Below, piece after piece: positions 1,949 to 51,250 of a stretch of DNA of 64,000 bases (its first letter is position 1; every line of letters starts with the position of its first letter). This DNA is from Phycisphaerales bacterium. Its GTDB lineage: Bacteria; Planctomycetota; Phycisphaerae; Phycisphaerales; SM1A02. A program made the translations under genes and the position numbers. The notes beneath the pieces were generated by a model. It worked only from the letters and a program-made list of their open reading frames with translations. It did not search any database and was not told where the DNA came from. The DNA is taken from the NCBI GenBank assembly GCA_022446885.1, contig JAKVBU010000006.1:1-64000 (forward strand). The letters are read 5' to 3'.

Positions 1949-1976
1949 TTGGACAGGGCATTGTAGCCCCTATCAT
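1949..1976 (+). promoter_or_regulatory. Likely mqnC promoter giving a leaderless transcript
   Basis: TTGGAC (1949-1954) and TATCAT (1971-1976) are 16 bp apart, a reasonable sigma-70 spacing. The box ends only 8 nt before the mqnC ATG at 1985, so transcription would start at or next to the start codon. There is no Shine-Dalgarno sequence. Confidence 0.5.
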
Positions 1977-1984
1977 CACCGGAC

Positions 1985-3433
1985 ATGGCTCCCGAACCCC
2001 TCCACATCACGTCCCCCCGCGCTGCCCTGAACCCAGCGGCAGACCCCTTCGATTCGGGCTTTTTGCAGGCCCTTGTTGGTGGAGAAGTTCGATTGAGCCC
2101 AAAGCAGGCACTCGCGTTGCACCGTGAGATGCCGCTGATCGAATTGGGCCGCTGGGCGGATGCCCGCTGCCGGGCTCTGCACGGCGATTCAATCCGCACC
2201 TACGTCATCGACCGCAACATCAACTACACCAACGTCTGTACGGCCAAGTGCACCTTCTGTGCCTTTCGCCGAGACGAAGAAGATGACGACGCCTACGTTC
2301 TGGAGCAGAGCGAGATTCACGCCAAGATCCGCGAACTGGTTGACATCGGCGGCACGCAGATTCTCATGCAGGGCGGCATGCACCCGGGCCTGCCGCTGGA
2401 CTGGTACGAAGACCTCCTCGGCTCCATCCGTCAGGCGTTCCCAGATCTGCACATTCACGCGTTCAGTCCACCGGAGATGGTGGAGTTCGTGCACTTCTTC
2501 AACCCGCCCGGGGAGTCCTTCGAAGCCAAGGTGCGATGGGTACTCACCCGACTGCAACAGTGGGGCCTGCACTCGTTGCCTGGTGGCGGAGGTGAGATCT
2601 TTGCCGACGCCGTGCGCCGCAAGATTGGCCTTGGAAAGTGTGACGCCGAGTCGTGGTTGACCGTGATGCGCGTTGCCCATGAACTGGGCATGAACACATC
2701 GGCCACCATGATGTTTGGGCACATAGAGGGGATTGCTGATCGCATCCATCACATGGATCTGGTTCGCACTTGGCAAGACCGCTCCATCGACGACTTCTCC
2801 ACCAATGGCGGTGGGCGATACATGGCGTTCATTTCCTGGCCTTTCCAGCGAGAGAACACGCCGCTGGGGCGAGCCAAGCACTGGGGCGATGGACCGGGCG
2901 ATGATCTCTCTCAGCCGTTCCCAGGCGATGTCGTCGCCACACTTGATGGCACGGGCAGCAAGGGCGACCACCCCGAGTTCGGCCGCCGAGTTCGCATGGC
3001 CGGAGCAAGTGAGTACCTGCGCACCCAGGCCATCAGCCGTCTGTATCTGGACAACATCTGGTCGATCGGTGCTTCGTGGGTCACCATGGGGCCGCACATC
3101 GGACAGGTGGCGCTGGCATTCGGCGCCAGTGACATGGGCTCAGTGATGATGGAAGAGAACGTCGTCAGCGCTGCCGGCACGACCTACTGCCTGAGCGAAG
3201 AAGTGATCTGTCACCTCATCCGCGACGCGGGCTTCCTGCCCGCCCAACGTGACAACGCCTACGACCTGCTGCGGGTGCACGACGCACCCACGTCGCCTGA
3301 TCTGGCGGTAGACGACTGGTCGAAACTGCGAACGAGCAAACTGCACGTTCAGCGTGCGGCCGCTGCCCCGGCCCCCGGTGCCACCGTCGAATTGGGCTGG
3401 GAACAGGCCCAAGAGGGCTGCAAAGGCCCCTGA
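1985..3433 (+). CDS. mqnC: Cyclic dehypoxanthinyl futalosine synthase (radical SAM)
   Basis: MqnC cyclises dehypoxanthine futalosine in the futalosine route to menaquinone. The 4Fe-4S motif is NYTNVCTAKCTFCAF (C85, C89, C92). Family blocks include GGTQILMQGGMHP, LPGGGGEIFADAVRRKI, TATMMFGH-like SATMMFGHIE, ASWVTMGPHIGQVAL and MMEENVVSAAGT. These fit MqnC better than MqnE or CofH. At 482 residues it is about 100 longer than usual. The extra length is a roughly 75-residue N-terminal extension, a 40-residue insertion around residues 300-340 between the barrel and the EYLR helix, and a C-terminal tail. No other menaquinone gene is in the window. Confidence 0.9.
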   Translation: MAPEPLHITSPRAALNPAADPFDSGFLQALVGGEVRLSPKQALALHREMPLIELGRWADARCRALHGDSIRTYVIDRNINYTNVCTAKCTFCAFRRDEEDDDAYVLEQSEIHAKIRELVDIGGTQILMQGGMHPGLPLDWYEDLLGSIRQAFPDLHIHAFSPPEMVEFVHFFNPPGESFEAKVRWVLTRLQQWGLHSLPGGGGEIFADAVRRKIGLGKCDAESWLTVMRVAHELGMNTSATMMFGHIEGIADRIHHMDLVRTWQDRSIDDFSTNGGGRYMAFISWPFQRENTPLGRAKHWGDGPGDDLSQPFPGDVVATLDGTGSKGDHPEFGRRVRMAGASEYLRTQAISRLYLDNIWSIGASWVTMGPHIGQVALAFGASDMGSVMMEENVVSAAGTTYCLSEEVICHLIRDAGFLPAQRDNAYDLLRVHDAPTSPDLAVDDWSKLRTSKLHVQRAAAAPAPGATVELGWEQAQEGCKGP

Positions 3434-4938: not shown

Positions 4939-5077
4939 GATTGCAAGCCTACCCGCTGGTGCCACGCAAGGCAGCGTGCAGATGCCATTGAGCCCCCCAC
5001 CAGAAGGGAGAGGGGCCGATGTAGGAACTAGGAGAGGAGGCGAGGCGGGAAGCGGCGACAACTGGGTCTACCGAATC

Positions 5078-10733: not shown

Positions 10734-10739
10734 GTGTGC

Positions 10740-10770
10740 ATGGTAGGCACCGGGCGGGTTTCAGTACCCT
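10740..10770. promoter_or_regulatory. Divergent -10 boxes of cbpA and tatC, each 6 nt from its ATG
   Basis: On the minus strand TACCAT (10740-10745) lies 6 nt before the cbpA ATG (10733). On the plus strand TACCCT (10765-10770) lies 6 nt before the tatC ATG (10777). The whole divergent gap is 43 bp, too short for untranslated leaders. Neither gene has a clear -35 box. Confidence 0.45.
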
Positions 10771-10776
10771 GCCCGG

Positions 10777-13856: not shown

Positions 13857-13862
13857 ACCTCG

Positions 13863-13911
13863 ATGATAGGAACAAGCAGATCAACCGACCGCCCCCAGCC
13901 TTCGATACAAT
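13863..13911. promoter_or_regulatory. Divergent -10 boxes for the BFN gene and metK
   Basis: Minus-strand TATCAT (13863-13868) is 6 nt from the BFN-gene ATG. Plus-strand TACAAT (13906-13911) is 9 nt from the metK ATG. The 64-bp gap leaves no room for a SAM riboswitch, so metK control must differ from that of riboswitch-bearing bacteria. Confidence 0.5.
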
Positions 13912-13920
13912 GCCTCGATC

Positions 13921-18917: not shown

Positions 18918-18947
18918 GTACCGATGGTATCGGGCCGAAAGCTCGAG

Positions 18948-30679: not shown

Positions 30680-30737
30680 AGTCTAGCACCCTCGTCGCCT
30701 TTGGCCCGCAGTTTGAACCGGCTCGCGCCGCTACCAT
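30680..30737. promoter_or_regulatory. Divergent -10 boxes for the aminotransferase and prfB
   Basis: Minus-strand TAGACT (30680-30685) is 6 nt from the aminotransferase ATG. Plus-strand TACCAT (30732-30737) is 8 nt from the prfB ATG (30746). Neither gene has a recognisable Shine-Dalgarno. Confidence 0.45.
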
Positions 30738-30745
30738 TCCACCCC

Positions 30746-31850
30746 ATGCACTATGAAGCACACCAGCCGGTGCTCGACGATCTTGAGGCGCGGATCTTGA
30801 CCATCCGCGACTCTCTTTGACTTCGATGCAAAAGTTGAACAACGAGACGGCTTGCAGGAGAAGATGAACGACGCGTCGTTCTGGGATGACCAGACGAAGG
30901 CGCAAGCGGTCATCGCTGAGTTCAAGTTGCTCAAGGCCCAAACCGAAGGGCTCGAAGGCATCATCACCGACTTTGAAGATGCCCAGGTGGGTTATGAACT
31001 GGCCCGCGAAGCCGGCGATGACGAATTGCTGGCCGAAGTAGATGACACGCTGCATCGCTTGGTGAATCGCATGGAGCGGGTGGAACTGCAGTCATTGCTG
31101 TCGGGCAAGCACGATCATCGCGATTGCTTCGTCTCCATTCAGGCCGGCGATGGGGGCAACGATGCCGACGACTGGGCCACCATGCTCGATCGCATGTACA
31201 CCGCCTGGTGGGAGAAGCAGGGTTGGAAGGTGGAACAGATCGCCGTCGTCCACGGCTCCGAGGTGGGCATCTCGAGCGTGTCCTATCACATCAAGGGGCC
31301 GCTGGCGTATGGCTACATGTCGTGTGAGCGAGGCACGCACCGACTCGCTCGCGTTAGCCCGTTCAATTCTCAGGGCAAGCGGCAGACCTCGTTCTGCACC
31401 GTAGATGTCACGCCGGAGTTTGAAGAGAGCGACGTCGAGATCGACGAAAACGAGATCGAGCTGACCACGTACGCCCGCTCATCGGGCCCTGGCGGCCAGA
31501 ACGTGAACAAGGTGGCCTCGGCCGTACGCATCGTGCACAAGCCCACGGGCATCATGGTGGTGAGTTCGACGCACAAAGCCCAGCTCCAGAACCGAAAGCA
31601 GGCCATGCGGATTCTGCAGGCCAAACTGGACCAACTTGAAGAGGAGCGGCGCCAAGCCGAACTCGATGCCGCCACGGGCGGCAAGGTTGATCGAGGTTGG
31701 GGATCGCAGATTCGCTCCTACGTGCTGTACGACAATCGCGTGAAGGACCACCGAACCAACCACGAAGTTGGCAACCCACAGACCGTGCTTGATGGCGATC
31801 TCGACGGGTTCATCGACGCGGAACTCAAGCGTCGCCGCAGCGACGGCTGA
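30746..31850 (+). CDS. prfB: Peptide chain release factor 2 (programmed +1 frameshift)
   Basis: RF2 terminates at UGA and UAA. Translation starts at ATG 30746 and meets TGA at 30818-30820 in CTT TGA C. Skipping one base restores the frame: residues 1-24 come from 30746-30817 and the rest from 30819-31850, giving [24 protein letters not shown] across the join in two parts, with a total of 367 residues. The SPF recognition motif ([14 protein letters not shown]) and GGQ motif ([12 protein letters not shown]) are present. The G-rich sequence found 3 nt before CTT in E. coli is absent. The apparent break is a known autoregulatory device, not a mutation. Confidence 0.95.
30815..30821 (+). promoter_or_regulatory. 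RF2 programmed frameshift site CTTTGAC
   Basis: The heptamer CTTTGAC matches the universal RF2 recoding signal (slippery CTT, UGA, C). When RF2 is scarce the ribosome slips +1 and makes more RF2. The preceding bases ATCCGCGACT carry no AGGGGG-like stimulator. Confidence 0.9.
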
Positions 31851-33848: not shown

Positions 33849-33908
33849 GTCGAGAATCCCTCTTGCTGAGTGCCGAATCTGAGTTGTAGCAGACGCTACT
33901 ATTTCGAA

Positions 33909-34203
33909 ATGCGACGTACCATCCCCTTCACTGTACTGACTCTCACTGCGACGGCCCTCGGGGAAGAAGCCTCACAGATGTCGGCTGATGGACGGCGATC
34001 CGGCCCACCGACTCACGGGCGATGGCAGTGCTGGCGCATCCGGAGGCTACGAGGCGTGTGTCGAACTGTACTACCTCGCCCAACTCACGCCCTGCCTGTA
34101 TGTGCAGCCCGGTATTGAGTGGATCGGCCATCCCGGCGGCGGTGACGAAGCACCGCTGGACAACGCGGTCGTGGGCTATTCGGTCGTTGGCGTCGAGTTC
34201 TGA
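33909..34203 (+). pseudogene. Remnant of an OprB-type carbohydrate porin
   Basis: The ATG at 33909, preceded by TACTAT at 6 nt, starts a signal-peptide-like sequence (MRRTIPFTVLTLTATALG). About 60 nt later the other frame encodes a typical OprB C-terminus: VELYYLAQLTPCLYVQPGIEW, then GHPGG, DNAVVGYSVVGVEF and stop. The 400 or so residues in between are gone and the two ends are out of frame. This looks like an internal deletion that left both gene ends. Confidence 0.6.
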
Positions 34204-51101: not shown

Positions 51102-51250
51102 GGAGGGCGAATTGTAGTGAGATTCACGGGCGCTTTGGCGACGCTGGAGTCGCCTTCAATTGAGCAGGCGATTGGGACAAAAGCCCAATTGATCTGCCGC
51201 AGGCGGAGCGGTCTTTGGAGCGTAGTGAGCGTCGAATATTGAGCGCCGGC

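Follow-up and report, generated by a model that had tools for sequence, protein, structure and literature searches.

The window analysed here, i.e., the whole stretch of 64,000 nucleotides, corresponds to bases 1-64000 of contig C65 of a genome of 2.87 Mb (108 contigs, 97% complete, GC content about 62%). In named genomes the nearest relatives of its MqnC (about 70-74% identity) belong almost without exception to Phycisphaerales/Phycisphaerae MAGs, and the genome is therefore assigned to the class Phycisphaerae of Planctomycetota. An earlier note on this DNA had listed 11 genes of the window in which a TANNNT box stands 6-9 nt before the start codon. When the sequence was re-read all 11 boxes were present at the spacings listed, none of the 11 genes carried a Shine-Dalgarno sequence, as the note had also claimed, and the gene names of 10 of the 11 were upheld by Pfam/NCBIfam. 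The boxes are given below together with their counterparts in G124, the only genome of the same genus in our sample (sampled 161 kb, loci L244-L263); the spacer is the number of nucleotides between box and start codon.

1971..1976 (+), TATCAT box of mqnC, spacer 8, ATG at 1985; in G124 identical box and spacing
4946..4951 (-), TAGGCT box of a LON-domain gene, spacer 7, start 4938; in G124 TACGCT, spacer 6
10740..10745 (-), TACCAT box of cbpA (J-domain, DnaJ_C), spacer 6, start 10733; in G124 TACCAT, spacer 6
10765..10770 (+), TACCCT box of tatC, spacer 6, start 10777; in G124 TACCAT, spacer 11
13863..13868 (-), TATCAT box of a bifunctional nuclease (BFN) gene, spacer 6, start 13856; in G124 TATCAT, spacer 9
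13906..13911 (+), TACAAT box of metK, spacer 9, start 13921; in G124 TACAAT, spacer 9
18924..18929 (-), TACCAT box of a NapH-like ferredoxin/TPR gene, spacer 6, GTG start 18917; in G124 TACCAT, spacer 6, with ATG
30680..30685 (-), TAGACT box of an aminotransferase gene, spacer 6, start 30673; in G124 TAGAAT, spacer 6
30732..30737 (+), TACCAT box of prfB (identity by Pfam/NCBIfam), spacer 8, start 30746
33897..33902 (+), TACTAT box of a putative OprB remnant (name from the earlier note), spacer 6, ATG at 33909
51111..51116 (-), TACAAT box of an SRPBCC (Polyketide_cyc2) gene, spacer 9, start 51101; in G124 TACTCT, spacer 10

Two divergent gene pairs carry one box per strand within short intergenic regions, namely cbpA/tatC (43 bp, 10734-10776) and BFN/metK (64 bp, 13857-13920). 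The 24-codon opening frame of prfB (30746-30820, +), which would be read as leaderless, ends in CTT TGA C, which is the usual programmed frameshift site of RF2, and directly 5' of this site no obvious Shine-Dalgarno-like stimulator was seen. Shine-Dalgarno-like sequences were confirmed before nearby ribosomal genes (42544, 36747) and before signal-peptide-like genes (24090, 41496, 35263, 8570), where the earlier note had placed them.

For the genome-level analysis 876 genes were called in a sample of 1.05 Mb (37% of the genome) using a hexamer coding model that is blind to upstream sequence, and all gene starts are hence predicted starts. In the window the automatic caller missed four of the 11 boxed starts, choosing other starts for metK, the NapH-like gene and prfB and calling no gene at the OprB start. 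The null model consisted of dinucleotide shuffles of the 40 nt upstream of each start (100 runs for the 1.05 Mb, 300 runs for the window), and 6329 internal in-frame ATGs served as decoys. A reversed-pattern control (277 against 247 in the own genome) was dropped; since it was unmatched in dinucleotides and codon phase, the pattern TANNNT-N12-ATG (spacer 12), which keeps the codon phase of spacer 6, was used in its place for whole-genome counts.

The enrichment of the box over chance is confirmed. With automatic starts 7 of the 58 window genes were boxed against 0.36 expected from the shuffles (maximum 2 in 300 runs). The comparison with shuffled upstream sequence proposed as a check in the earlier note, run here on the 37% sample, gave a wide excess, with 128 of 873 genes boxed at 6-9 nt compared with 10.7 +/- 3.2 after shuffling (maximum 18 in 100 runs). 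Counted by position from the called starts, TANNNT preceded 64, 24, 24, and 16 genes at spacers of 6, 7, 8, and 9 nt, respectively, but only 3, 0, 2, 0, 3, and 1 genes at spacers of 0-5 nt, and on average 0.33% of genes per position at spacers of 30-79 nt. Such a lack of boxes at less than 6 nt would be expected if the start codon must lie inside the transcript. A spacer-6 box was found at 7.4% of called starts and at 0.08% of the decoy ATGs, and in the whole genome TANNNT-N6-ATG occurred 277 times compared with 78 times for TANNNT-N12-ATG.

The direct estimate of the share of genes concerned is (128-11)/873 = 13%. A further 52 genes with neither box nor Shine-Dalgarno sequence at the called start had a boxed alternative start nearby, compared with seven for the control spacing, and the estimate was therefore raised to about 19%. 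The leaderless mode thus appears to be used by about 13-19% of genes, roughly one in six.

Boxed genes differed from the remainder in several properties. Shine-Dalgarno sequences preceded 9 of the 128 boxed genes (7%) and 290 of the 748 others (39%; p = 1e-14), the value for decoy ATGs being 9%. ATG was the start codon in 113 of 128 (88%) and 543 of 748 (73%), respectively (p = 1e-4), and C occupied position -1 in 83 of the 128 boxed genes (65%) compared with 48% of the others. The box was found at 24% of divergent genes, which make up 70 of the 128 boxed genes, and at 4.7% of genes less than 20 nt from a co-directional neighbour. Relaxing T-12, A-11 or T-7 left almost no positional excess; the commonest hexamers were TAGGCT (23 of 128), TACACT, TACCAT, and TAGAAT, and there was a weak preference for G two bases 5' of the box.

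No enrichment of a TTGACA-like -35 element was detected 16-18 bp upstream of the box in the 128 boxed genes, which in this respect do not have classical -35/-10 sigma-70 promoters, and because no -35 element was found the strength of the promoters is unexplained. A domain search of the genome for a stand-alone CarD as a helper returned none; the only CarD-type domain match (G000:C98:134246-134422) lies inside an open frame of 1142 aa, which judging from its size is probably Mfd. Boxed genes with 120 bp or more before them had few further forward TANNNT hexamers at 10-119 nt (five, compared with 23 in reverse-complement orientation). Shine-Dalgarno genes whose upstream neighbour was 120 bp or more away showed a forward TANNNT excess 20-70 nt upstream, as expected of ordinary leadered promoters.

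Of 17 orthologues of boxed genes in G124, 14 had kept the box at 6-9 nt and two more had one at 10-11 nt, and of 54 orthologues of unboxed genes none had a box at 6-9 nt (p = 3e-12 for the contrast). Box and approximate spacing were kept between the two genomes while the flanking bases had diverged. The GC content of G124 (54.6% in the sampled 161 kb, compared with about 62% here) marks a large gap within one genus across which the boxes persist. For metK, TACAAT-N9-ATG is present in both species of the genus; in other families of the order metK mostly has no box and in several cases a GGGAGA-type sequence before the start, so that the mode changes gene by gene. The mqnC box is kept mainly in the nearest relatives, and beyond these the orthologues of mqnC and tatC are often without a box; there is therefore no order-wide conservation gene by gene. 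In many Phycisphaerae (loci L070, L075, L081, L089, L090, L096, L100, and others) an imperfect inverted repeat, CTTTCAG-N-CTGAAAG, possibly a regulator site, lies 20-40 nt before the mqnC start, and in the window mqnC has the TATCAT box in its place.

The explanation we consider very likely is that TANNNT is the -10 element of housekeeping sigma-70-type promoters with no detectable -35 element, set 6-9 nt before the start codon, a distance that places the transcription start on the codon itself, and that leaderless mRNAs arise in this way from the 13-19% of genes estimated above, beside a set of Shine-Dalgarno genes. A housekeeping sigma-70-type RNA polymerase would read the box and begin the transcript with the first nucleotide of the ATG or GTG codon, and the mRNA would then have neither a 5' leader nor a Shine-Dalgarno sequence; the 5'-terminal start codon would presumably be bound by the 70S ribosome, or by the 30S subunit with IF2. 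Users of this mode would mostly be first or divergent genes, and many other genes would be expressed from leadered mRNAs with Shine-Dalgarno sequences. We infer the exact start site, as well as the sigma factor identity and the ribosome route, the last two by analogy with the related systems named below. The earlier note's proposal of widespread leaderless transcription is supported by the 6-nt limit, the lack of Shine-Dalgarno sequences, the pyrimidine (Y) at -1, the preference for divergent and first genes, and the conservation in orthologues.

The boxes might alternatively be -10 promoters whose transcripts start a few nucleotides early, giving leaders of 1-5 nt at least at spacers 7-11. 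The spread of spacers, from 6 to 9 nt here and up to 11 nt in G124, speaks for such leaders, and a start site always 6 nt from the box would give half of the boxed genes leaders of 1-3 nt. The spacing is indeed not fully fixed: with a start site kept at 6-9 nt from the box, the G124 orthologues of tatC (11 nt) and of the SRPBCC gene (10 nt) would be left with short leaders. However, a pyrimidine at -1 was favoured at every spacer and was present in 63-81% of genes with spacers of 7, 8, and 9 nt, and only 12-25% of these genes showed a YR step 6 nt from the box, from which the first transcribed base is likely the start codon's own. We regard such early starts as unlikely, with about one chance in four left to them.

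A reading of the box not as a promoter but as a translation signal, i.e., a site for the ribosome or S1 that contains A and U and lies in a leadered mRNA, would fit its place near the start, where it stands in for the Shine-Dalgarno sequence, and S1 sites are one reading of the upstream AT bias in non-Shine-Dalgarno genes (PMC5397173). An S1 site would, however, be U-rich, whereas here only T-12, A-11, and T-7 matter and the remaining positions are GC-rich; the box is rare inside operons, where such a signal would serve equally; and the hard 6-nt limit and the scarcity of other promoter-like boxes upstream of boxed genes point the same way. In Deinococcus radiodurans, moreover, a ribosome binding site could not take the place of the motif, which reportedly binds RpoD (PMC12340547), and we consider a translation signal highly improbable. 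That the boxes arise artefactually from the calling of starts, from base composition or from the stop codons (TAG/TAA) of upstream genes, as the frequency of TAG-type boxes such as TAGGCT might suggest, is refuted and hardly deserves any credence, given that at the 70 divergent boxed genes no upstream gene ends on that strand, that starts were called without upstream data, that the shuffles and the spacer-12 control fell far below the observed counts, and that the box is kept in orthologues.

For the distribution of leaderless promoters of this kind across Planctomycetota, the spacer-12 pattern count was subtracted from the spacer-6 pattern count per Mb, with a cut-off of z = 5 outside the window's order; the test is weaker in AT-rich genomes, whose background is high, and absence there is less certain. 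Each of the 19 genomes sampled from the order showed an excess, of 26-76 per Mb with ratios of 1.4-5.2. Elsewhere in the class the cut-off was exceeded by 5 of 101 genomes, e.g., G062 (486 compared with 120) and G068 (285 compared with 66), and elsewhere in the phylum by 39 of 140 genomes, in families including f41, f45, f50, f59, and f79. The whole-genome pattern test detected no spacer-6 excess in families f47, f71, f54, f66, and others outside the class. Gene-level samples of G084, G102, G078, and G062 had a peak at 6-9 nt, although samples were small and counts low, and that of G004 was weak (5 boxed genes against about 3 expected, Shine-Dalgarno sequences in 42%; low counts). Leaderless expression from promoters lacking a -35 element, in this genome without a stand-alone CarD, is somewhat more probably than not a lineage trait within Planctomycetota, general in the order of the window, scattered in other families and near absent in many, which would have been gained or lost several times and in which genes such as metK switch between the leaderless and the Shine-Dalgarno mode among relatives.

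These results extend widespread leaderless mRNA to a further bacterial lineage, one that is large and mostly uncultured. With the trait patchy within one phylum, comparison can be used to test how an initiation mode is gained and lost. Gene finders that seek Shine-Dalgarno sequences will misplace starts in these genomes, and the box provides a simple correction rule.

The mechanism is a known one, that of the TANNNT leaderless genes of Deinococcus, and its occurrence in this host lineage appears to be new. In the openly accessible literature covered, supplementary figures aside (Planctomycetota may be among the groups in Fig. S7 of PMC12340547), we found no report for Phycisphaerae of leaderless transcription or of mapped start sites. 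A 2017 study of one Planctomycetes species described an upstream composition bias in non-Shine-Dalgarno genes, hinting at leaderless and/or S1-mediated initiation (PMC5397173); that work concerned composition only, with no box, spacing or gene list, whereas here a discrete box stands at a fixed place. A survey from 2011 described TA-led genes, in which TANNNT lies about 12 bp upstream in high-GC genomes of Actinobacteria and other groups and which were taken as leaderless, and names no Planctomycetes (PMC3160421). The genes described here are alike in having TANNNT about 12 bp before the start, far above chance, and the present analysis adds to that survey an orthologue-conservation test and a phylum-wide control in the same codon phase.

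There is a close likeness to Deinococcus-Thermus, where TANNNT lies about 6-7 bp before the open reading frame, bases 1, 2, and 6 are irreplaceable, no -35 element is required, and RpoD is implicated, its binding to the motif having been reported for D. radiodurans, in which TANNNT at like spacing constitutes proven promoters (PMC12340547). The leaderless genes of the two groups share the motif, the essential bases, the spacing, the lack of a -35 element, and the presence of a Shine-Dalgarno class beside them, and a menaquinone-pathway gene is among the examples in both, mqnE in Deinococcus-Thermus (PMC12340547) and mqnC here. They differ in phylum, in the fraction of genes concerned (about 13-19% of genes here compared with about 30% of open reading frames in Deinococcus-Thermus; PMC12340547), and in the spread of the spacing up to 9 nt, which with the predicted starts used here is more even than in Deinococcus-Thermus (PMC12340547).
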